Shown piece after piece: positions 13-13,295 of a DNA stretch of 39,888 bases. Origin of the DNA: Thermoguttaceae bacterium. Lineage in GTDB: Bacteria; Planctomycetota; Planctomycetia; Pirellulales; Thermoguttaceae. The notes beneath the pieces were generated by a model. That model saw nothing but the letters and a program-made list of their open reading frames with translations. It was not told the origin of the DNA and searched no databases. The stretch covers positions 1-39,888 of the forward strand of contig JAQVKF010000010.1 of assembly GCA_028694795.1 (NCBI GenBank). Reading direction: 5' to 3'. The position numbers and the translations under genes are program-made. Each line of letters opens with the position of its first letter. Position 1 is the first letter of the stretch.

Positions 13-2634
13 TTACTCGGTCACCGGTTCTGGCGTTGTAGCGGGTTCAGGTGCAGGCTGCGGCACCGGTTCTGGCGTTGGAGCGGGTTCAGGTGCAGGC
101 TGCGGTACCGGTTCTGGCGTTGGAGCCGGTTCCGGTACGGGTTGCGGCGCGGGAGCGTTTTTCAAGGCTTCGATTTCCGCTTTCAGTGCTTTCACTTCTG
201 TCTTCAAGGCTTCCGCTTCCGCTTCCGCCGCGTTTTTGGCATCCAGAGCCACCTTCGCTGCCGTATCCGCTTCCGCACGAGCCTTTTCCGCCGCCGCCTG
301 CTTGGCCATTGCCTGGGCGACCGCCGCATCCGAGGCCGCCTTCGCATCAGTCGCCGCCTGAGTTGCCGCCGCCGCGTCTTTCACCGCCGCTTCAGCTGCC
401 GCATCGGCTGCCGCAAGTTTCTCCGCCGCCACTTTCGCCGCCGCCTCGGCATCCACGCGAGCTTTTTCCGCCAACGCTTTCGCCGCCGCGTCTACCGTCG
501 ATTGTTCCATCGCCGCCTTGGCATCCGCTACCGCCTTCGTCGCCGCATCGGCTGCCGCCTTCACGCCCGCTTCCGCTTTCGTCTTCGCCGCATTCGCCGC
601 ACTGGCCGCCGCATCCGCTTCCGCCTTCGCTTTTTCCGTAGCCGCAAGTTTTTCCGCGGCTGTCTTGGCATCCGTTTCCGCTTTCGCCCTCGCATCCGCT
701 GCCACCCTCGCATCCGCTTCGGCCTTTGCCATCGCATCCGCTGCTACCTTGGCATCCGCTTCCGCCTTTGCTTTGGCCGCCGCGTCGGTTGCCGCTTGCG
801 TTTCTGCCGCCACACGAGCCGCCTCGGCATCCGCTGCCGCTTTTTCCAACGCGTCACGTTCCATGCGTTCCGCCACAACAACCGACTGCGGTCCATCCAG
901 ACCCGCATTCGCTCGCGGATCGCGGATATTTTCGTTCCAATCAGCCAGCGTTTGAACCTGAGCGTTGAGCGTCGGCGTCATATAGTCAAGCAGCAGTTTC
1001 GGCGCACAGCCGAACAACACGGCCATCGCCACCAACGTTCCGGCAATCGTAATTTCTCGTTTCGTTTCCGGCATCTTATCAAACGCTTCGGCATGGGGTC
1101 CGACATATTCCGCACCATAATAAACACGCTTAATCGTCCACAGAATATACGACGCCGTCAAAATCACCACAAACGCCGCAATCACCGCCAAACACATACT
1201 ATATTTCCAAACCGACAAAACGACGAGAATCTCGCCGATAAATCCGCACAAACCGGGCAGCCCCAAACCAGCAAAGAAGATCGCAATCGCCAAACCGCTG
1301 TATACGGGCATTTTGGCGAAAATACCGCCAAACTCGTCCAAATTACGATGGTGAACACGGTCGTACAATACGCCAACCATAAAGAACATGCCAGCGGACG
1401 ACAAACCGTGCGCGATCATCTGGAACATCGCGCCTGCCGTACCCATCTGCCAGTATTCAACATTATAACCATAATCGGCCACCGCACTCCACACACCGAT
1501 ACCGAGTAGCACATAACCCATATGGCTGACCGAGCTGTACGCCACGAGACGTTTGAAATCCTTTTGGGCCAACGCCGCAAACGCTCCATATACCATACTG
1601 ATCACGCCTAATGAACAGACGAGCCACGCAAAAGTGTACGCTCCGTCTGGACAGATCGGATAGCAAATTCGCAAAATACCATAACCACCCATTTTCAACA
1701 GTACACCGGCCAAGATCATCGAAATCGGCGTCGGCGCCTCGACGTGCGCATCTGGCAACCACGTATGGAACGGAACCGCCGGCAGCTTGATGACAAATCC
1801 GATGAACAACAACAGGAACGTCCACCACTGGACCGATTTGCCGCACCACAGCGCCACATCAAATGGCGAATGTTCTATCTGACCCATCTTCGCCAACGCG
1901 AGGATGTTAAACGTATGGACCGGCTCGGTGTGATTGAAATTGGTCGCCGATTCCACTGCCAAAGCAATTGTTTCCTGTGGAATATACGACTCCACCATGT
2001 CCGCTTCAGAAAGCATACGCAGGTCACTATGGAAGTACAACGCCAAGAGCGAAATCAACATCAACACCCCACCCACAAAGGTGAATAGGAAGAATTTGAT
2101 CGCCGCGTATTCACGTCGCGGACCACCCCAGATACCGATCAGGAAGTACATTGGCAAAAGCATCACTTCCCAGAATATGTAGAACAGCACGAAGTCAAGC
2201 GAAACAAAAACGCCCAGCATCGCCGTCTCCAAAATCAGGAAAAGAATGCAATATGCCTTCACATGCTTCGTAATCGACCAGCTCGCCCACATCGCCAACA
2301 CGGAAAGGAACGAGGTCAAAATGACGAGTGGGAAACTAATACCGTCATAACCCACCGCATACTGAATGCCAAATGTCGGAATCCACGCGAATTGCGATAC
2401 CTGCTGCATGCCCGCCGCGCCGAGTTTGAAGTTTACATCAGTGCCGCCAACCGCCGCCGGAATCGCCATCCAAAGCGTAAGCAAAAAGACCGCAATCGTG
2501 ATCGCCAGCGAAACTCGCTTGATCGTTTGATCGGTATTTTGCGGATTCTCACCCTTCGGCATCACCGCTAAAAGCAATGTCCCCAACGCGGGCATAAATA
2601 CTACGAGTGAAAGCAACCAGTCTGAAAGTGCCAT
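13..2634 (-). CDS. nuoM: NADH-quinone oxidoreductase subunit M with a long C-terminal Ala-rich/Pro-rich extension
   Basis: Core motifs FWEVMLLPMYFLIGIWGG, VIKLPAVPFHTWLPDAHVEAPTPISMILAGVLLKMGGYGILR and LVAYSSVSHMGYVLLG are characteristic of NuoM; the last ~285 aa are non-homologous low-complexity sequence. Confidence 0.96.
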   Translation of the reverse strand: MALSDWLLSLVVFMPALGTLLLAVMPKGENPQNTDQTIKRVSLAITIAVFLLTLWMAIPAAVGGTDVNFKLGAAGMQQVSQFAWIPTFGIQYAVGYDGISFPLVILTSFLSVLAMWASWSITKHVKAYCILFLILETAMLGVFVSLDFVLFYIFWEVMLLPMYFLIGIWGGPRREYAAIKFFLFTFVGGVLMLISLLALYFHSDLRMLSEADMVESYIPQETIALAVESATNFNHTEPVHTFNILALAKMGQIEHSPFDVALWCGKSVQWWTFLLLFIGFVIKLPAVPFHTWLPDAHVEAPTPISMILAGVLLKMGGYGILRICYPICPDGAYTFAWLVCSLGVISMVYGAFAALAQKDFKRLVAYSSVSHMGYVLLGIGVWSAVADYGYNVEYWQMGTAGAMFQMIAHGLSSAGMFFMVGVLYDRVHHRNLDEFGGIFAKMPVYSGLAIAIFFAGLGLPGLCGFIGEILVVLSVWKYSMCLAVIAAFVVILTASYILWTIKRVYYGAEYVGPHAEAFDKMPETKREITIAGTLVAMAVLFGCAPKLLLDYMTPTLNAQVQTLADWNENIRDPRANAGLDGPQSVVVAERMERDALEKAAADAEAARVAAETQAATDAAAKAKAEADAKVAADAMAKAEADARVAADARAKAETDAKTAAEKLAATEKAKAEADAAASAANAAKTKAEAGVKAAADAATKAVADAKAAMEQSTVDAAAKALAEKARVDAEAAAKVAAEKLAAADAAAEAAVKDAAAATQAATDAKAASDAAVAQAMAKQAAAEKARAEADTAAKVALDAKNAAEAEAEALKTEVKALKAEIEALKNAPAPQPVPEPAPTPEPVPQPAPEPAPTPEPVPQPAPEPATTPEPVTE
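16..870 (-). other. TolA/TonB-like C-terminal extension of NuoM (Ala/Lys/Glu helix followed by PEPVPQPAPEPAPT repeats)
   Basis: Translation from about MERDALEKAAADAEAARVAAETQAATDAAAKAKAEADAK... to ...PAPQPVPEPAPTPEPVPQPAPEPAPTPEPVPQPAPEPATTPEPVTE, in frame with the NuoM core. Confidence 0.9.
26..151 (-). repeat. 42-bp tandem repeat (3 units, third diverged) encoding the 14-aa unit PEPVPQPAPEPAPT at the NuoM C-terminus
   Basis: Units at 26-67 and 68-109 (ggttctggcgttg[t/g]agcgggttcaggtgcaggctgcgg[c/t]acc) are almost identical; a diverged unit lies at 110-151. Confidence 0.9.
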
Positions 2635-2830: not shown

Positions 2831-5416
2831 TTATCGAATCGGGATATTCGCCACCGGGACATCAATTCCGAGGTACAACATCGAAACAATCGCCAACAGC
2901 AGCACCGCGCCGACACCCACCCACGCGACGTAATTTCCGATATTGCCCGTCTGTACCTGACGCAACGTATCGCCAACACGGTAGGTCAAACGCGCAATGC
3001 CATTGACACAACCATCTACGATACACCGATCAATCCATTCGTCAATCTTAGAAATCCATCTTGTTTGCGTCGCCAGCCCATCCGCAAAGCGATCAATTCC
3101 GAGTTTATCGATTCCAGCGATTACACCACCAACGGCGATGCTACCGCGAACAAATACCACGTCATAAATTTCGTCGAACCACCATTTGTTCTTAAATAGA
3201 ACATATAAAGGTCGGAACGTATCGGCTACCTTCTGTGGATCGATTTTTCGCAGCGCGTAAATAACGGTCGCAACGACAAATCCGAGCAGTGCGAGTCCCG
3301 AAGCCAATAGGGAGACAAACACGTGAATCGAATGTTCATGCGAGAGCGATTCCGCCGGCATGAGCACCTGCACGATCTCGCCGAGCTGCGAGCCAGCCGC
3401 GACACCCGCCGGTTCCGCCTGCATGATCAGTTCTTTCAAACCACCATTCACAACCGGAAGCGTCCAAGCACAACCGATGGCGAAAACCGCGGTGATCACC
3501 AGCGGCGCAACCATCGACCAGGGCGATTCATGAGCATGTTCGTAACGATGTGCGTCACGTGGTTTACCGAGGAATGTTAGATACCACAATCGGAACATAT
3601 AAAACGCTGTGATACAGGCACCGAAAGTCGGGACCCAGAACAGCAATCCGCCGTAGGGATTCGAACCGCCCTCGAACGTCATGAACGAATATCCTTGCGC
3701 CAAAATCGCGTCTTTCGAATAATATCCTGAAAGACCGATGATCAGCGGAATCCCCGCGCCGGCAATCGCCAAACAGCCCACGAGCATCGTGTACGCCGTC
3801 CACGGCATCTTTTTGAGCAAGCCTCCCATTTCCGTCATCTCGTTCGTATGTACGGCATGGATCACCGAGCCGGAACCCATAAAGAGCAACGACTTGAAAA
3901 AGGCGTGCGTAAACAGGTGCAGCATCCCCGCAAACCAACCACCGACACCCAATCCGAAGAACATATAACCTAATTGGCTAATCGTCGAATAGGCGAGTAC
4001 TTTTTTGATATCGGTCGCCGTAATCGCAATCGTCGCCGCCACGAACAACGTAATACAGCCGATCGCCGCAATCACGAGCAACACTTCCGGAACGAACGCC
4101 GGATAAAATCGTCCAACGAGAAAAACGCCCGCCGCGACCATCGTCGCCGAATGCACTAACGCACTCACCGGCGTCGGACCTTCCATCGCGTCTGGAAGCC
4201 ATACATGTAACGGGAATTGGGCACTTTTACCTACACAACCACAGAAAATACCCAATCCACCGATCATCATCAAAATATACGCAAACTGTTCTGGATCTTC
4301 CGCTCCCGCACCGCGTGCCAGATCAATAAAACCTTGCGGCACACTCAGTCTATGAGGATCGTCATCACCCGGAAGCGTCGCTCCACGCATCAGCGTAAAG
4401 ATACCCGGCTGGATATCGACCACTTCGTTCGAAGCGGATTCACTGACCGCACCAGCATCCGTCACAACCGCATCATTCGCAACTGGATCACCCGATTCCA
4501 CGGCCTGCGTAGTCGCCACTGGGGTCCTCGAACCGCCATGGACGGGCATATCGCCAAAGTTCAACGTACCGAGAGCCGACCAAAAGATCATCATGCCGAT
4601 AATGAAACCGAAGTCACCCACACGGTTCACGATGAACGCTTTGTTACCAGCCATCGACGAACTCTCTCGTTCATAATAGAAACCGATCAGGAAGTAGGAA
4701 CAAATACCGACCAATTCCCAGAACACGAACGTCATCGCCAGATTGCCCGAAATGACCAAACCGAGCATACTGAAGCAGAAGAGCGACAGATACTGGAAGA
4801 AACGATGATATCTTCCAGGACGGCGGAGCGGCGAACCGTCACGCAACTTCGCTTGGTGATCGACCATCGGTTCCAGCTCTTCGTGCATATACCCTGTGGC
4901 GTAAACGTGGATACAAGTCGCAATCAGTGTCACCATGCAGAACATCGCAATCGTCAACGCGTCAATATAACAGCCGAACGACAGCCGTAACGAACCGAAT
5001 TCACAAAGCGTATACCACTCACGGACCACCGGTGCGGCGGCATGTTCGGACACCTCGGCATCGAGTGTCGGAATATCGGTCACCACTGCGTCCGCCACTT
5101 CCGCAGCGGTCTTTTCCAACGCCGCTTCTGTCCGAGTACCTGCAACGGTCTGAGTACCCGTAGCCGCCTGATCATTCGCAACTGCCGCGTGAGCGGCCTC
5201 GTGTGAGACCGCAACCGGCGGATAATGCGAGCACCAAATGCACGCCGAGATCGCCGACAGAAGGAAACCCGTTCCAATCGCCGTAATCGCCAAATATCCC
5301 GCACACTTGCCAGCCTTCCCCATCTTCGGACCGAAGAAGAGAATGAGGACAAACGACGCGAGCGGTAAAAGCCACGCCAAACCGAGCAATGTTGGTAAAT
5401 AATTGAGTGTATTCAT
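2831..5416 (-). CDS. nuoL: NADH-quinone oxidoreductase subunit L with two lineage-specific loop insertions
   Basis: Motifs FVFWELVGICSYFLIGFYYER, GKSAQFPLHVWLPDAMEGPTPVSALVHSATMVAAGVFLVGR and FFKSLLFMGSGSVIHA. Confidence 0.96.
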   Translation of the reverse strand: MNTLNYLPTLLGLAWLLPLASFVLILFFGPKMGKAGKCAGYLAITAIGTGFLLSAISACIWCSHYPPVAVSHEAAHAAVANDQAATGTQTVAGTRTEAALEKTAAEVADAVVTDIPTLDAEVSEHAAAPVVREWYTLCEFGSLRLSFGCYIDALTIAMFCMVTLIATCIHVYATGYMHEELEPMVDHQAKLRDGSPLRRPGRYHRFFQYLSLFCFSMLGLVISGNLAMTFVFWELVGICSYFLIGFYYERESSSMAGNKAFIVNRVGDFGFIIGMMIFWSALGTLNFGDMPVHGGSRTPVATTQAVESGDPVANDAVVTDAGAVSESASNEVVDIQPGIFTLMRGATLPGDDDPHRLSVPQGFIDLARGAGAEDPEQFAYILMMIGGLGIFCGCVGKSAQFPLHVWLPDAMEGPTPVSALVHSATMVAAGVFLVGRFYPAFVPEVLLVIAAIGCITLFVAATIAITATDIKKVLAYSTISQLGYMFFGLGVGGWFAGMLHLFTHAFFKSLLFMGSGSVIHAVHTNEMTEMGGLLKKMPWTAYTMLVGCLAIAGAGIPLIIGLSGYYSKDAILAQGYSFMTFEGGSNPYGGLLFWVPTFGACITAFYMFRLWYLTFLGKPRDAHRYEHAHESPWSMVAPLVITAVFAIGCAWTLPVVNGGLKELIMQAEPAGVAAGSQLGEIVQVLMPAESLSHEHSIHVFVSLLASGLALLGFVVATVIYALRKIDPQKVADTFRPLYVLFKNKWWFDEIYDVVFVRGSIAVGGVIAGIDKLGIDRFADGLATQTRWISKIDEWIDRCIVDGCVNGIARLTYRVGDTLRQVQTGNIGNYVAWVGVGAVLLLAIVSMLYLGIDVPVANIPIR
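4385..4550 (-). other. NuoL insertion 2 (Ala/Val/Ser-rich, ~50 aa, predicted between TM6 and TM7)
   Basis: VHGGSRTPVATTQAVESGDPVANDAVVTDAGAVSESASNEVVDIQPGIFTLMRG follows the conserved GTLNFGDM. Confidence 0.75.
5015..5235 (-). other. NuoL insertion 1 (Ala/Thr/Glu-rich, ~70 aa, predicted between TM2 and TM3)
   Basis: SHYPPVAVSHEAAHAAVANDQAATGTQTVAGTRTEAALEKTAAEVADAVVTDIPTLDAEVSEHAAAPVV inserted before WYTLCEFGSLRLSFGCYIDALT. Confidence 0.8.
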
Positions 5417-5461: not shown

Positions 5462-5827
5462 TCAACCGTGTAGTTCGTTCGCCTGTTCGACATCAATGGT
5501 GGTGTGCGTATGGTAAAAGTGGAGCGCGATGGCCAGAGCCACAGCCGCTTCCGCCGCTGCCAGCACGATCACAAACAGTGCGATGATTTGACCGTCGAGG
5601 CCAAGTGGCGCTTTCGCTTCCGGCCAGAGTGCCGGCGAACCGAACGCCACGAAATTCACATTCGCCCCGTTCAATACCAGCTCAATGCCCATCAACACAC
5701 CGATCGCGTTCCGTTTGGCAATCATACACGCCAATCCACAGCAAAATAGGACCGCGCCCACCGCCAAATAATGCGTCGCACCGACCGGTTGATTGACAAA
5801 GTCGAATATCTTCCAAAATAAATCCAT
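5462..5827 (-). CDS. nuoK: NADH-quinone oxidoreductase subunit K
   Basis: IAKRNAIGVLMGIELVLNGANVNFVAF...GQIIALFVIVLAAAEAAVALAIALHFYH is typical of NuoK. Confidence 0.95.
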   Translation of the reverse strand: MDLFWKIFDFVNQPVGATHYLAVGAVLFCCGLACMIAKRNAIGVLMGIELVLNGANVNFVAFGSPALWPEAKAPLGLDGQIIALFVIVLAAAEAAVALAIALHFYHTHTTIDVEQANELHG

Positions 5828-5986: not shown

Positions 5987-8341
5987 CTACCGAAAAATGA
6001 GCCAAGCATATCCCTCTGCCGGAATCGTCACACACACCACGGCGTTTTGCCGCTCGTCGAGTGTCACGGTGTACGCATCACTTAATCTATTCTCCGGACC
6101 ATTTCCATTCCGACTATCGTCACCACGGACCATGGCCGAACCGGTCAGCCCGGTGTAGTACAACGGAATTGTCAGCTCCGTCTCAATGTCTTCCGTAAGC
6201 GGGTTGTACAGGAACGCCAGACCGCGTTCACCCGTCATGCTATTCGGATTCACATGGAGCCAACCATCCCAATCACGGCCCGTCGCACGTCGAAGATGGA
6301 TCAGCTCTCCATCGAGGACTTCGCGATGAGCCTTGTAAAAATCAACCCATTTGCAAACGATCGCCTTCGTTTCCGGCGTATCGAAGAGGCGTGGCCCACG
6401 ATAACAGGCCTGAACACCCGCCCCGATCAAATTAGCGAATCGCGCGTCGTAATGTTCTAAATGTTCGCAAAGCGGTTCAATCGTCGCCGCCGCGCCACCC
6501 CCATGGTATTGACTCAACGGTACGAACATCCACCCCATCGAATTGAGTTTCGTCCATGTGCCATCGTAAACATTCTGACGTTCGATGATCACCTGTTCCG
6601 CGCGAGGCAGCGACCAATTGGTCTCACGGTATCCCATGCCCGTCTTGTTGCCGCCGTTCAGGAAATAACCATCCGGCTGATTGACGTAAATACCCTTTGA
6701 TCGACACCATCGATACAGCTCTGACTGTGCACGCCATTGGATCCACTGCGAATCCTCCAAACCGTGATGACCAGGATGCGTCGTCGTCCCGCAGCAATCG
6801 CCCGGGTAGGGACCATCGTTCTCGAAAACGCCAAAGCCAGCCTCTTCCATGAACGAACGCAGCGTCGCAAAGTAGTCGATTCCCCATTGCGATCCCAAAC
6901 ACGGCCCCACTCCGAATCGAGGGTTCGCCGTTTGGACATTGTCCGCCACCGTCGCCGCGCCGCGTGACGAAGTCAGCGAATAACCACCCAACGCGATACC
7001 CGCCTGCCGTGCTTCGTCCGTCAGTTCACGATAAAGTTTTCGATACTCCGGATCACGACTTTCCAAATTAAATCCAGAGCCAAAACTCATAATCACCAAC
7101 TCGAATCCCGTCTCGCGGCACTGCGTGATCGCCTCACGAATCGCATCGGGGGCCGACTGCACCTTGTGGAACATGAGCGGATTTTCCGTCGTCCACGGCG
7201 CAATCGTCCGATACATCCTCCGTACGCCCAGCCCACGTCGCTCACGATCGGTACTATCGTGGAGTAATTCATACACACGGAATGACTCAAATCGTTCACC
7301 CGGTTTCAAAATCTGGTCCGGTCCCAACGGCGGCACGCATTTGAGCAAACATTTCGTCTCGCACAGGTAGTTGACCTGCGTCGGATAATCGGGATCGTTT
7401 TCGAGCCTAACAGCCACCCCAGCTCCAAGTGACGTACTGCACATGCCGCCAAAGGTGTAATCACACTCAACATGCAGCCGGTATGCCTCCGTCAAAGCCG
7501 CTCCATCGACATTCGATTCCGGCTCGACCAACCGCAACTGTTCCGATACAAATTGATTCAGCCGAATCTCTTTGCCCGCTTCGCTCGGCAGCTCGACCTC
7601 GATCCACTTGGCAATAAGCGGAATCCCATCGTAAATCTCGTAATGCACCTCCACATTCGGCAGGACTACTCCACTCGCCGCATCACCCGTCGTCACATCT
7701 GGCGGTATGAACGTCATCACGAAATGCTTACCTCGCGGCGGCCACGCGACATCACGCGGCATCCATTCTAGCCGTTTTTTCCACGCAAACCGCTCTTCGA
7801 TTTCCGACACGCTCTGGCCGACGCAGCGGTAGGCACGCTCGAGCGGTTTCATCTCCGTCAACCATTCCGGTTTCAGGTAATTGTTGATTTTTTGCCCCGT
7901 CAACCCGCCTATCGGATATTCGATCCCGTCAATCGTCACGATTGCTTCCGGCCCAACCGCTCGCACATACTCCTCACCCGACGTGACATTTCGCAGGCTA
8001 ACCGTGGCCACCGCTGAAGTTCCAACCGGTACTGCTGAAGCAGCCGACACTGCCGAATCAAACGCTGCCGAATCAAACGGAGCGAACACCATCACTCGCC
8101 GAGCTAACCCATTATCGAGCGTCCAAGTCCTCTTCGCCGCGTTCCATTCCACACGAGCGACAAAATCCGAGGCATCCACCAGCCAATCCCGAACCGCCGT
8201 GGATTTTGCCGTGTTAGCCGGATTCACCGCCGATGGGACCGCCAAACCGCCAGCCGACACGGCGTTTCCACGCGACACGCCCACACTGGCCAATACGCCG
8301 CCGAGCAACAGGTTTCGTCGAGTTGTCGAAATGTTTCGCAT
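5987..8341 (-). CDS. Tat-signal exported glycoside hydrolase-like protein (possible melibiase/clan GH-D-like TIM barrel)
   Basis: Start placed at MRNISTTRRNLLLGGVLASVGVSRGNAVSA, a twin-arginine leader with hydrophobic core. The ORF track extends upstream to 8518, but the signal peptide supports the internal start. Barrel-like segments include ITQCRETGFELVIMSFGSGF and GFGVFENDGPYPGDCC. The family assignment is tentative. Confidence 0.6.
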   Translation of the reverse strand: MRNISTTRRNLLLGGVLASVGVSRGNAVSAGGLAVPSAVNPANTAKSTAVRDWLVDASDFVARVEWNAAKRTWTLDNGLARRVMVFAPFDSAAFDSAVSAASAVPVGTSAVATVSLRNVTSGEEYVRAVGPEAIVTIDGIEYPIGGLTGQKINNYLKPEWLTEMKPLERAYRCVGQSVSEIEERFAWKKRLEWMPRDVAWPPRGKHFVMTFIPPDVTTGDAASGVVLPNVEVHYEIYDGIPLIAKWIEVELPSEAGKEIRLNQFVSEQLRLVEPESNVDGAALTEAYRLHVECDYTFGGMCSTSLGAGVAVRLENDPDYPTQVNYLCETKCLLKCVPPLGPDQILKPGERFESFRVYELLHDSTDRERRGLGVRRMYRTIAPWTTENPLMFHKVQSAPDAIREAITQCRETGFELVIMSFGSGFNLESRDPEYRKLYRELTDEARQAGIALGGYSLTSSRGAATVADNVQTANPRFGVGPCLGSQWGIDYFATLRSFMEEAGFGVFENDGPYPGDCCGTTTHPGHHGLEDSQWIQWRAQSELYRWCRSKGIYVNQPDGYFLNGGNKTGMGYRETNWSLPRAEQVIIERQNVYDGTWTKLNSMGWMFVPLSQYHGGGAAATIEPLCEHLEHYDARFANLIGAGVQACYRGPRLFDTPETKAIVCKWVDFYKAHREVLDGELIHLRRATGRDWDGWLHVNPNSMTGERGLAFLYNPLTEDIETELTIPLYYTGLTGSAMVRGDDSRNGNGPENRLSDAYTVTLDERQNAVVCVTIPAEGYAWLIFR

Positions 8342-8489
8342 CGGATTCCCCTGTCCTTTCACGGTATGAACCAGTCTTATTCCATTTAGGTCAAACAATT
8401 CAATCTCAGTCAAAAAATTCTCTTTGTACCCAAACAGCATGTTTCTCGTACAAAAAGATGGTCTATGGACCACCGGCTGATTGATCGGA

Positions 8490-9272
8490 TCAGACGGTTG
8501 TCGATTGTTTTTCGGCACGCACTTTTTTGGCTCGGGCTAGGTAGGCCGCCGCAAGTAGCACCACCACCAAATGCACCGAAACGATCTCGAACGGTAGCAT
8601 ATATCCCGTACCAGGCGTGTGGTGACACGTCTCATCCGCCGCATCGCAATGCTCGTGATCGACACCCGCCAGCGTATCAGTTCGCACACCAGCCAAAGCG
8701 GAACCCAACGCACCGGAGGTCGGTGGAAACGGTTTTTCGCTATTCTCACGCATACTCTCCCGCTTCGCCGCAACCAACTGTGCCGCACGCGTTTCCGCAT
8801 CTACCGTACTCGCCACGGCGGTCCCATTGGTCGAATTTGCAGCGGAATCACCACCTTCACCGAAATCACCACGTTCACAGCCACCGCAGCCGACAGGGGC
8901 TTCACAGTATGCCGAGTCGATATTCATCGGACACAACACGCCGGAGACGATGAGCAGGAGCAACAGAAGCGAAGATCCAGCGAGGGTCGCCAACATGCCA
9001 TTCATGCAGCGTGCGGCCAATCCACCACGCGCACCACTGGCAGTCATCATCACACCAAAGATGATCAACACCAGCGTCCCCCCGACGTAAACCATCAACT
9101 GCAGAGCACCGACGAAATCAGCCCCCGCCAAGAAAAATAACAATGCCACCGAACCGAGCGAACCGACTAGTAACATCGCCATCCGGGTCATATTGCGTGA
9201 AAACACCATCCCAACCGCCGCCGCACAGGCCGCAAACGCGCCAATCAGGAAAAATATCGTATGCCAGTTCAT
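8490..9272 (-). CDS. nuoJ: NADH-quinone oxidoreductase subunit J with a large Cys-containing loop insertion
   Basis: Start MNWHTIFFLIGAFAACAAAVGMVFSRNMTRMAMLLV; GADFVGALQLMVYVGGTLVLIIFGVMMT is diagnostic of NuoJ; the final TM is FEIVSVHLVVVLLAAAYLARAKK. Confidence 0.93.
   Translation of the reverse strand: MNWHTIFFLIGAFAACAAAVGMVFSRNMTRMAMLLVGSLGSVALLFFLAGADFVGALQLMVYVGGTLVLIIFGVMMTASGARGGLAARCMNGMLATLAGSSLLLLLLIVSGVLCPMNIDSAYCEAPVGCGGCERGDFGEGGDSAANSTNGTAVASTVDAETRAAQLVAAKRESMRENSEKPFPPTSGALGSALAGVRTDTLAGVDHEHCDAADETCHHTPGTGYMLPFEIVSVHLVVVLLAAAYLARAKKVRAEKQSTTV
8600..8935 (-). other. NuoJ insertion (~110 aa) predicted between TM4 and TM5, with paired Cys/His motifs
   Basis: CPMNIDSAYCEAPVGCGGCERGDFGEGGDSAANSTNGTAVASTVDAETRAAQLVAAKRESMRENSEKPFPPTSGALGSALAGVRTDTLAGVDHEHCDAADETCHHTPGTGYM. 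Confidence 0.8.
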
Positions 9273-9286
9273 GGAAAACTCCGTTT

Positions 9287-10372
9287 TTATCCAGGAAACG
9301 CCGCCATCCAAAGCATGGCTCCCAAAAACATCGCCGCGGTAATTGGAAAACAGTATTTCAAACACATCGTCATCACTTGGTCCACACGCAAACGTGGCAG
9401 TGACCAACGCGCCCACATCATGATCGCAATCAAAATATAAATTTTGGCCAAAAAGCCGATCGCTCCACAACAGTTGCCGATCCAACCGAGAGCCGGATGC
9501 ACATGTTCGGACAACCAAACCCACTCGGTCCACGGAATCGGACCATTCCAACCGCCGAGGAACAAAATCGAACCTAAACCGCAAATGACCACCATCGAGG
9601 TGTATTCACCCATGAAAAACGCCGCCCAACGGAAACCGGAGTATTCCGTCATGAAACCGGCGACCAACTCGCTCTCCGCTTCCGCCATGTCGAACGGAGC
9701 ACGGTTACAACCTGCCGTCGCACAAACGAGAAATACGAAAAATGTTACGAACATGAATGGATTCGCAAAAATTCCCCAATGCCAGAACCAACCGCTCTGC
9801 GCCTCGCCGATCACGTTCAAATCCATCGTACCGAAACACATGACCGGAATCACCACACACATTCCCAGCGGCACTTCGTAGCTCACCATCTGGGCCGCCG
9901 CTCGCATACCTCCCAAAAGAGAGTATTTGGAACCGCTGCTCAAACCGGCCAACACCGTACCAAACACATCCATCCCGAGGATTGCCAACGCCATAAACGC
10001 CGCACTATTCACCTGTTGAGCCGCCCAACCATCGGCAAACGGCACCACGAAAAAGACGGTAAACGCCGCCGTCAGTCCGAGGTACGGAGCAAGCCGAAAG
10101 AGAATTGGGTCGGCTTCCGTCGGCACGAGATCCTCTTTGCACAACAATTTAATACCATCTGCGGGCGATTGGAGCCAACCGAAACGACCACCGACACGAT
10201 GTGGACCCAAACGGTCCTGGGTACGTCCGGCAATCTTGCGTTCCAGCCAGTTAAATATCGCCACTGACAACAACGCGATCGCGATCACAATCACCGCGAT
10301 CACGACTGCCCAGATGGTCTCCATCACCCACTGCCAGCCCGGCGGTACCAGTTCAACAAACCAAGTTTTCAC
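9287..10372 (-). CDS. nuoH: NADH-quinone oxidoreductase subunit H
   Basis: ERKIAGRTQDRLGPHRVGGRFGWLQSPADGIKLLCKED and APFDMAEAESELVAGFMTEYSGFRWAAFFMGEY motifs. Confidence 0.97.
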   Translation of the reverse strand: MKTWFVELVPPGWQWVMETIWAVVIAVIVIAIALLSVAIFNWLERKIAGRTQDRLGPHRVGGRFGWLQSPADGIKLLCKEDLVPTEADPILFRLAPYLGLTAAFTVFFVVPFADGWAAQQVNSAAFMALAILGMDVFGTVLAGLSSGSKYSLLGGMRAAAQMVSYEVPLGMCVVIPVMCFGTMDLNVIGEAQSGWFWHWGIFANPFMFVTFFVFLVCATAGCNRAPFDMAEAESELVAGFMTEYSGFRWAAFFMGEYTSMVVICGLGSILFLGGWNGPIPWTEWVWLSEHVHPALGWIGNCCGAIGFLAKIYILIAIMMWARWSLPRLRVDQVMTMCLKYCFPITAAMFLGAMLWMAAFPG

Positions 10373-12539: not shown

Positions 12540-13295
12540 TCAATCTTCGGGTAATGTCAACCGAGCATCGCCGCGATTTTTCCAAGTACGAATCCAGTCG
12601 AGATCGCCGCGTCGCCAAACGTAGGCGAATCCGACCATCAAAACGAGAAAAAAGACCGCCATATCGGCCATCGCGATCCGCATCATTTTCTTGCCGTATT
12701 CCGAAATCGCGACCGCATTCTGATCCGCCGCCGCTTGTAGCAAAACCGTGCTGTCCGTCACGACTGGCAGCGTCGGTTCCCTTACTCCCAGCTCCGCAAA
12801 CGCCGCTCGCGTCTTCGGCTGCAACACCAGTTGGCCACGCTCAATCGTCACTTTATCATTTCCAGCTGCTGCGGAATCGCGAACCAAACTCGCCGTTCTC
12901 ACAGTGGAAATTTTCGCAGAATCACACATTTTACCATCGGCATCCGCACAAACCGTCATACCGGCATCGGCGTCTGCGTCATTCGTATTCACCGTAGCCA
13001 TGATGGCAGGAGACGAGGCGAGCTGAGCCGCGCGACCGAAAACCAAACTCCACGGAAAGAAAAACGCCAACTCAACATCGAAAATGAGGAAGACCAACGC
13101 GACCACATAGAATCGCAAGTCGAATTGCGGCTTACTCGAGCCAATCGGCTCTTCACCGCACTCATAAATGGCAAGTTTTTCTTTCGATGGCTTCTTCGGT
13201 CGCAAAAACCAACCGATCATCAGGGCCACCAGCACCAAACAAAAAGCTGTCGCCGCAAAAAGTGCAAAATAACCCACGAGTGAAGTCGAAGTCAT
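12540..13295 (-). CDS. nuoA: NADH-quinone oxidoreductase subunit A with a large insertion between TM2 and TM3
   Basis: KLAIYECGEEPIGSSKPQFDLRFYVVALVFLIFDVELAFFFPWSLVF is diagnostic of NuoA/ND3; TM3 IAMADMAVFFLVLMVGFAYVWRRGDLDW. Confidence 0.94.
   Translation of the reverse strand: MTSTSLVGYFALFAATAFCLVLVALMIGWFLRPKKPSKEKLAIYECGEEPIGSSKPQFDLRFYVVALVFLIFDVELAFFFPWSLVFGRAAQLASSPAIMATVNTNDADADAGMTVCADADGKMCDSAKISTVRTASLVRDSAAAGNDKVTIERGQLVLQPKTRAAFAELGVREPTLPVVTDSTVLLQAAADQNAVAISEYGKKMMRIAMADMAVFFLVLMVGFAYVWRRGDLDWIRTWKNRGDARLTLPED
12690..13035 (-). other. NuoA insertion (~110 aa) between TM2 and TM3
   Basis: RAAQLASSPAIMATVNTNDADADAGMTVCADADGKMCDSAKISTVRTASLVRDSAAAGNDKVTIERGQLVLQPKTRAAFAELGVREPTLPVVTDSTVLLQAAADQNAVAISEYGKKMMR. 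Confidence 0.8.

Follow-up and report, generated by a model that had tools for sequence, protein, structure and literature searches.

An alanine-rich C-terminal tail on NuoM and two adjoining genes with NuoN-like hairpins in the genome of a Thermoguttaceae bacterium

Introduction

NuoM belongs with ND4 and Nqo13 to a family of Complex I membrane subunits (TIGR01972) whose members share a full core of 14 transmembrane (TM) helices, four catalytic residues and a gene order in which nuoM follows nuoL. The NuoM described here has all of these features but continues for about 300 residues past the core, compared with 6 at the equivalent point in Escherichia coli NuoM. Additions to this part of the complex have been described in Paracoccus, where ND4 and ND5 carry extra sequence on the periplasmic side, in one case with 44 disordered residues (PMC11522691). 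Like these, the tail studied here is predicted to be periplasmic; unlike it, the Paracoccus additions are loops and hairpins, with no C-terminal coil (PMC11522691). The supernumerary subunits named in the same study are not NuoN-derived hairpins (PMC11522691), unlike the products of two genes, here designated orfX and orfY, that adjoin nuoM in this genome.

A second point of comparison is provided by domain II of TolA and of TonB, with an Ala-rich helix and a Pro-rich segment on the periplasmic side, as the NuoM tail appears to have. In-frame repeats are also a source of variation in tolA (PMC3477136). In contrast to TolA and TonB, the NuoM tail hangs on a 14-TM pump and has neither an SHLS helix nor a C-terminal domain. 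Our literature search on NuoM extensions and planctomycete Complex I coils found no description of such a tail, although this does not prove that none exists. Here, we analyze the tail and its surroundings in a 39,888-nucleotide stretch of DNA from a Thermoguttaceae bacterium, referred to throughout as the window.

Results

A complete NuoM core is followed in frame by a long tail. The open reading frame (ORF) occupies positions 13 to 2634 of the window on the minus strand, from an ATG at 2634 to a TAA at 13 to 15, and encodes 873 amino acids with no internal stops. The NCBIfam profile TIGR01972 (NDH_I_M) matched residues 8 to 561 at 520 bits, against a curated cutoff of 263.8, and Pfam PF00361 was found with an E value of 1.3e-65. 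All four catalytic residues of E. coli NuoM (E144, K234, K265, and E407) are kept, aligning to E156, K283, K314, and E468. Hydropathy alone gave 12 TM helices, an even number. The AlphaFold2 (AF2) model, compared by Foldseek, matched chain 8qby_M with a TMt of 0.93 (up to 0.94 for solved NuoM chains), indicating the 14-TM fold. Profile score, catalytic residues and fold all place the protein in the NuoM family, with the core at residues 1 to 585 (window 880 to 2634, minus strand). The sequence-only reading had described a NuoM fused in a single frame to a long tail, and the uninterrupted ORF and complete core confirm this. Upstream on the same strand lie nuoL (2831 to 5416), which was recognized by Pfam and encodes 861 amino acids, and nuoK (5462 to 5827).

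The tail spans residues 589 to 873 (window 16 to 870), or approximately 285 residues. These coordinates are as first reported, but the figure of 285 had been assigned to the Ala-rich sequence with a Pro-Glu repeat thereafter, when in fact it covers both parts. The first part (residues 590 to 825; window 160 to 867, minus strand) comprises 236 amino acids, 46% of them Ala, and is predicted from its periodicity and the AF2 model to be a helix, possibly heptad-periodic. It contains 42-bp (14-amino-acid) repeats of the AKAEADAKVAADAM type (window 653 to 771, minus strand; Tandem Repeats Finder [TRF] score, 161) and is closed by a short, leucine-zipper-like Leu/Val/Leu/Ile/Leu stretch. The second part (residues 826 to 873; window 16 to 159, minus strand) is a Pro-Glu repeat of 48 amino acids, predicted to be disordered from its pLDDT; TRF placed this array at 22 to 148, with a period of 42 bp, equal to 14 amino acids, and a score of 205. 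The power of Ala at 3.5 residues was 2.20, compared with 2.13 at 99% of shuffles, with a heptad phase that is discontinuous along the tail. A hendecad (11/3) pattern was rejected, its power being 0.36 against 2.20 at 3.5. Among the lags listed, self-similarity was strongest at 14 amino acids. Given the TRF scores, the Ala periodicity and this lag, the repeat pattern is not due to chance.

Codon usage and GC3 in the tail match those of the nuo core, with GCG as the main Ala codon in both. Codons differing by a single change among three 14-amino-acid repeats of the coil showed 11 synonymous and 7 nonsynonymous changes (27% expected; P = 0.0025); this excess of synonymous changes, in a small sample with few changes, suggests selection at the protein level. 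At the DNA level the Pro-Glu units are almost the same, with 2 synonymous and 4 nonsynonymous changes, a ratio to be expected in the absence of selection. A search of the genome matched only the tail itself and its overlap with a second contig (see below), and copying from another genomic site was rejected. Neither Pfam nor NCBIfam gave a domain match in the tail, including the sequence after the Pro-Glu repeat, and no PDB match was obtained at 0.01.

The tail is predicted to form long helices on the periplasmic side. Helices in the C-terminal part of the AF2 model ran from 546 to 579, 581 to 663, and 681 to 826, and pLDDT fell below 50 at 659 to 684 and 828 to 873. The AlphaFold check proposed at the outset thus returned a tail modeled as two long helices with a disordered end. 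Lys and Arg residues in the short loops of NuoM numbered 2 on the N-terminal side and 13 on the opposite side, and in the Paracoccus Complex I structure the TMH2-3 and TMH6-7 loops of ND4 and ND5 are periplasmic (PMC11522691). The charge rule, the sides of these loops and the 14 helices together place the NuoM C terminus in the periplasm. We therefore predict that the tail lies on the periplasmic side, as had been claimed.

The operon probably continues on a second contig. The genome is a draft (89% complete, 310 contigs), and the start of the window is the end of its contig, C86, within the Pro-Glu array. Positions 1 to 126 of the window overlap exactly, over 126 bases, with positions 44 to 169 of contig C44, which carries the operon on (locus L004). 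C44 contains at least one further Pro-Glu unit and the same frame end and stop, after which come orfX, orfY, and nuoN, in keeping with the order typical of nuo operons. The overlap and the gene order suggest that C86 and C44 are adjacent. Because the window opens at a contig end inside the array and C44 has at least one extra unit, the number of repeats is uncertain.

orfX and orfY encode NuoN-like hairpins. Both genes sit between nuoM and nuoN on C44, outside the window, and each begins with a hairpin of two TM segments (by hydropathy) that is homologous to NuoN TM1-2. Against an N-terminal NuoN profile made from relatives, with this genome left out, the hairpins of orfX and orfY gave E values of 1e-5 and 3e-5, while the lowest E value among 2,000 shuffled hairpins was 0.12; BLASTP against NuoN gave 2e-7 and 5e-9, respectively. 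By homology with NuoN, both ends of each hairpin would be periplasmic. Counts of charged residues do not settle the side, being 2 to 2 for orfX and 6 to 2 in the opposite direction for orfY. Past its hairpin, orfX continues for about 200 Ala-rich residues and then about 100 more. The Ala-rich segment looks coil-like from its sequence, and our analysis found no significant periodicity in it. It resembles the NuoM coil only in composition, and homology between the two was rejected. Past the hairpin of orfY come just some 50 hydrophilic residues, and it is not to be described as a coil protein. No S.H.L.S motif was found in either product, neither exceeded the cutoff for any Pfam or NCBIfam profile, and a PDB search with orfX returned chance-level matches only. 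The operon position and the NuoN homology of the hairpins suggest that both proteins may be Complex I subunits. By eye, two similar stretches of about 35 bp, resembling direct repeats, are present upstream of orfX (L004, about 190 to 400).

Tails are common in relatives, but the arrangement seen here is unusual. Across 70 NuoM loci of the same order, our own included, the median tail was 25 amino acids; in the operons of 20 relatives it was 34.5, with a range of 1 to 166 and no conservation of sequence. As tails of 1 to 166 amino acids are common in relatives, the tail described here takes a known tendency to an extreme. The distance from the nuoM stop to the start of nuoN ranged from −25 bp (nuoN starting ahead of the stop) to 277 bp in 38 relatives and is 2,005 bp here. 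Searches of 118 further genomes of the family and of the other 196 genomes sampled from the order, a set that overlaps the 118, returned no orfX; no second genome of the same genus was among the relatives searched. The combination of tail and hairpin genes thus appears unusual, occurring only in this genome among those compared, and the function that we discuss for it is a predicted one. Two NuoM matches in other genomes (G220:C181 and G366:C435) lie within frames that stay open for 1,735 and 1,731 amino acids, possibly reflecting fused subunits or read-through. Many genomes of the same family had no match to this NuoM, and some members of the family may lack Complex I.

Other features of the locus and genome. 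Loops of NuoA (window 12540 to 13295), NuoJ (8490 to 9584), and NuoL (2831 to 5416), all encoded on the minus strand, are enlarged. Between the anchors used, their lengths were 118, 116, 77, and 92 residues, compared with 3, 29, 16, and 14 in E. coli, and the same loops in relatives are intermediate (medians, 64, 55.5, 47.5, and 72). By standard topology, those of NuoA and NuoJ presumably face the periplasm, and the enlarged TM2-3 and TM6-7 loops of NuoL would do so too. An ORF of 843 amino acids (5987 to 8518, minus strand) occupies the nuoJ-nuoK interval; by eye it has a twin-arginine-like N terminus and resembles a secreted enzyme, and NCBIfam gave no match. We found no nuoI at the locus between nuoH and nuoJ (8490 to 10372). 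Three matches to PF10589 (NuoF-type NADH_4Fe-4S) on contigs C28, C122, and C99 suggest several NuoF- or hydrogenase-like proteins, and a genome-wide search for OmpA gave one match.

Discussion

We tentatively favor the possibility that the NuoM tail is a periplasmic structural scaffold or assembly element, its coil pairing with itself or with that of orfX. A short hydrophilic ancestral tail, of the kind common in relatives, may have been lengthened by internal duplication of 14-residue units, giving a periplasmic helix that engages in, or is poised for, coiled-coil pairing and ends in a flexible Pro-Glu segment. Pairing of the NuoM coil with itself would link two copies of Complex I; alternatively, the partner may be the predicted orfX coil. 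In either case, the paired coil, on the periplasmic face of the membrane arm, could help to assemble or order the complex. We favor this reading because of the intact frame and complete NuoM, the Ala periodicity and terminal zipper, the AF2 helices, the synonymous bias and the predicted periplasmic side, and also because orfX and orfY have NuoN-like hairpins, orfX was found in this genome alone and the gap between nuoM and nuoN extends to 2,005 bp. Against it, the NuoM and orfX coils are alike in composition only, the heptad phase is broken and the periodicity of orfX is not significant; moreover, the arrangement comes from one draft genome, and the unconserved tails of relatives fit low constraint equally well.

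Indeed, growth under low constraint is nearly as likely as a scaffold role. In this order, Complex I may simply tolerate hydrophilic additions to its periplasmic ends and loops, with replication slippage producing a long repetitive tail of little function. The variable and unconserved tails of relatives, the enlarged periplasmic loops of NuoA, NuoJ, and NuoL, and the near-identical Pro-Glu units, with changes as expected without selection, all fit this explanation. It accounts less readily for the synonymous bias in the coil repeats (P = 0.0025), for the heptad-type order with its terminal zipper, for a tail that has no second copy in the genome, and for its coincidence with two new adjoining hairpin genes, one with a predicted coil.

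The sequence-only reading had proposed, among other roles, a tether or spacer. In the version considered here, without energy coupling, the rod would span the periplasm and its Pro-Glu end would reach the peptidoglycan or outer membrane, anchoring Complex I. The length would suffice, since at 0.15 nm per residue the helices of 83 and 146 residues would together extend about 34 nm when straight; the tail is on the appropriate side by the charge rule and the Paracoccus structure, and its flexible Pro-rich end resembles TonB domain II (PMC12204202). We nevertheless regard a tether as unlikely, since searches of Pfam, NCBIfam, and PDB recognized no wall- or outer-membrane-binding domain at the tail end, and the low-confidence break at 659 to 684 could let the helix fold back. 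That assembly or binning joined unrelated sequence to nuoM is very improbable: the genome is a draft with a contig end inside a repeat, but the core-tail junction is internal to the contig and away from the Pro-Glu array, tail and core share the same codon usage, and C44 repeats the frame and the stop before leading on to nuoN in the normal gene order. The energy-coupled TolA/TonB-like link that had also been suggested, a transducer powered by proton-motive force, can practically be dismissed, as it has in its favor only the overall look of an Ala-rich helix with a Pro-rich segment, whereas NuoM has no SHLS motif (searched as S.H.L.S), ends in a disordered Pro-Glu repeat without a globular C-terminal domain or a Pfam or NCBIfam match, and belongs to a genome in which no TonB_C gene was found.

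The scaffold reading can be extended to a Complex I periplasmic scaffold built within this lineage from the NuoM coil and two accessory proteins derived from duplicated NuoN TM1-2 hairpins; this fuller version is doubtful as a whole. Bacterial Complex I is usually regarded as minimal. If the fuller version is true, pieces of core subunits have taken on the role of supernumerary subunits in a bacterium. The core genes of Complex I would then be seen to give rise to accessory parts of the same complex, and the locus would offer a testable case of a membrane arm organized from the periplasmic side.
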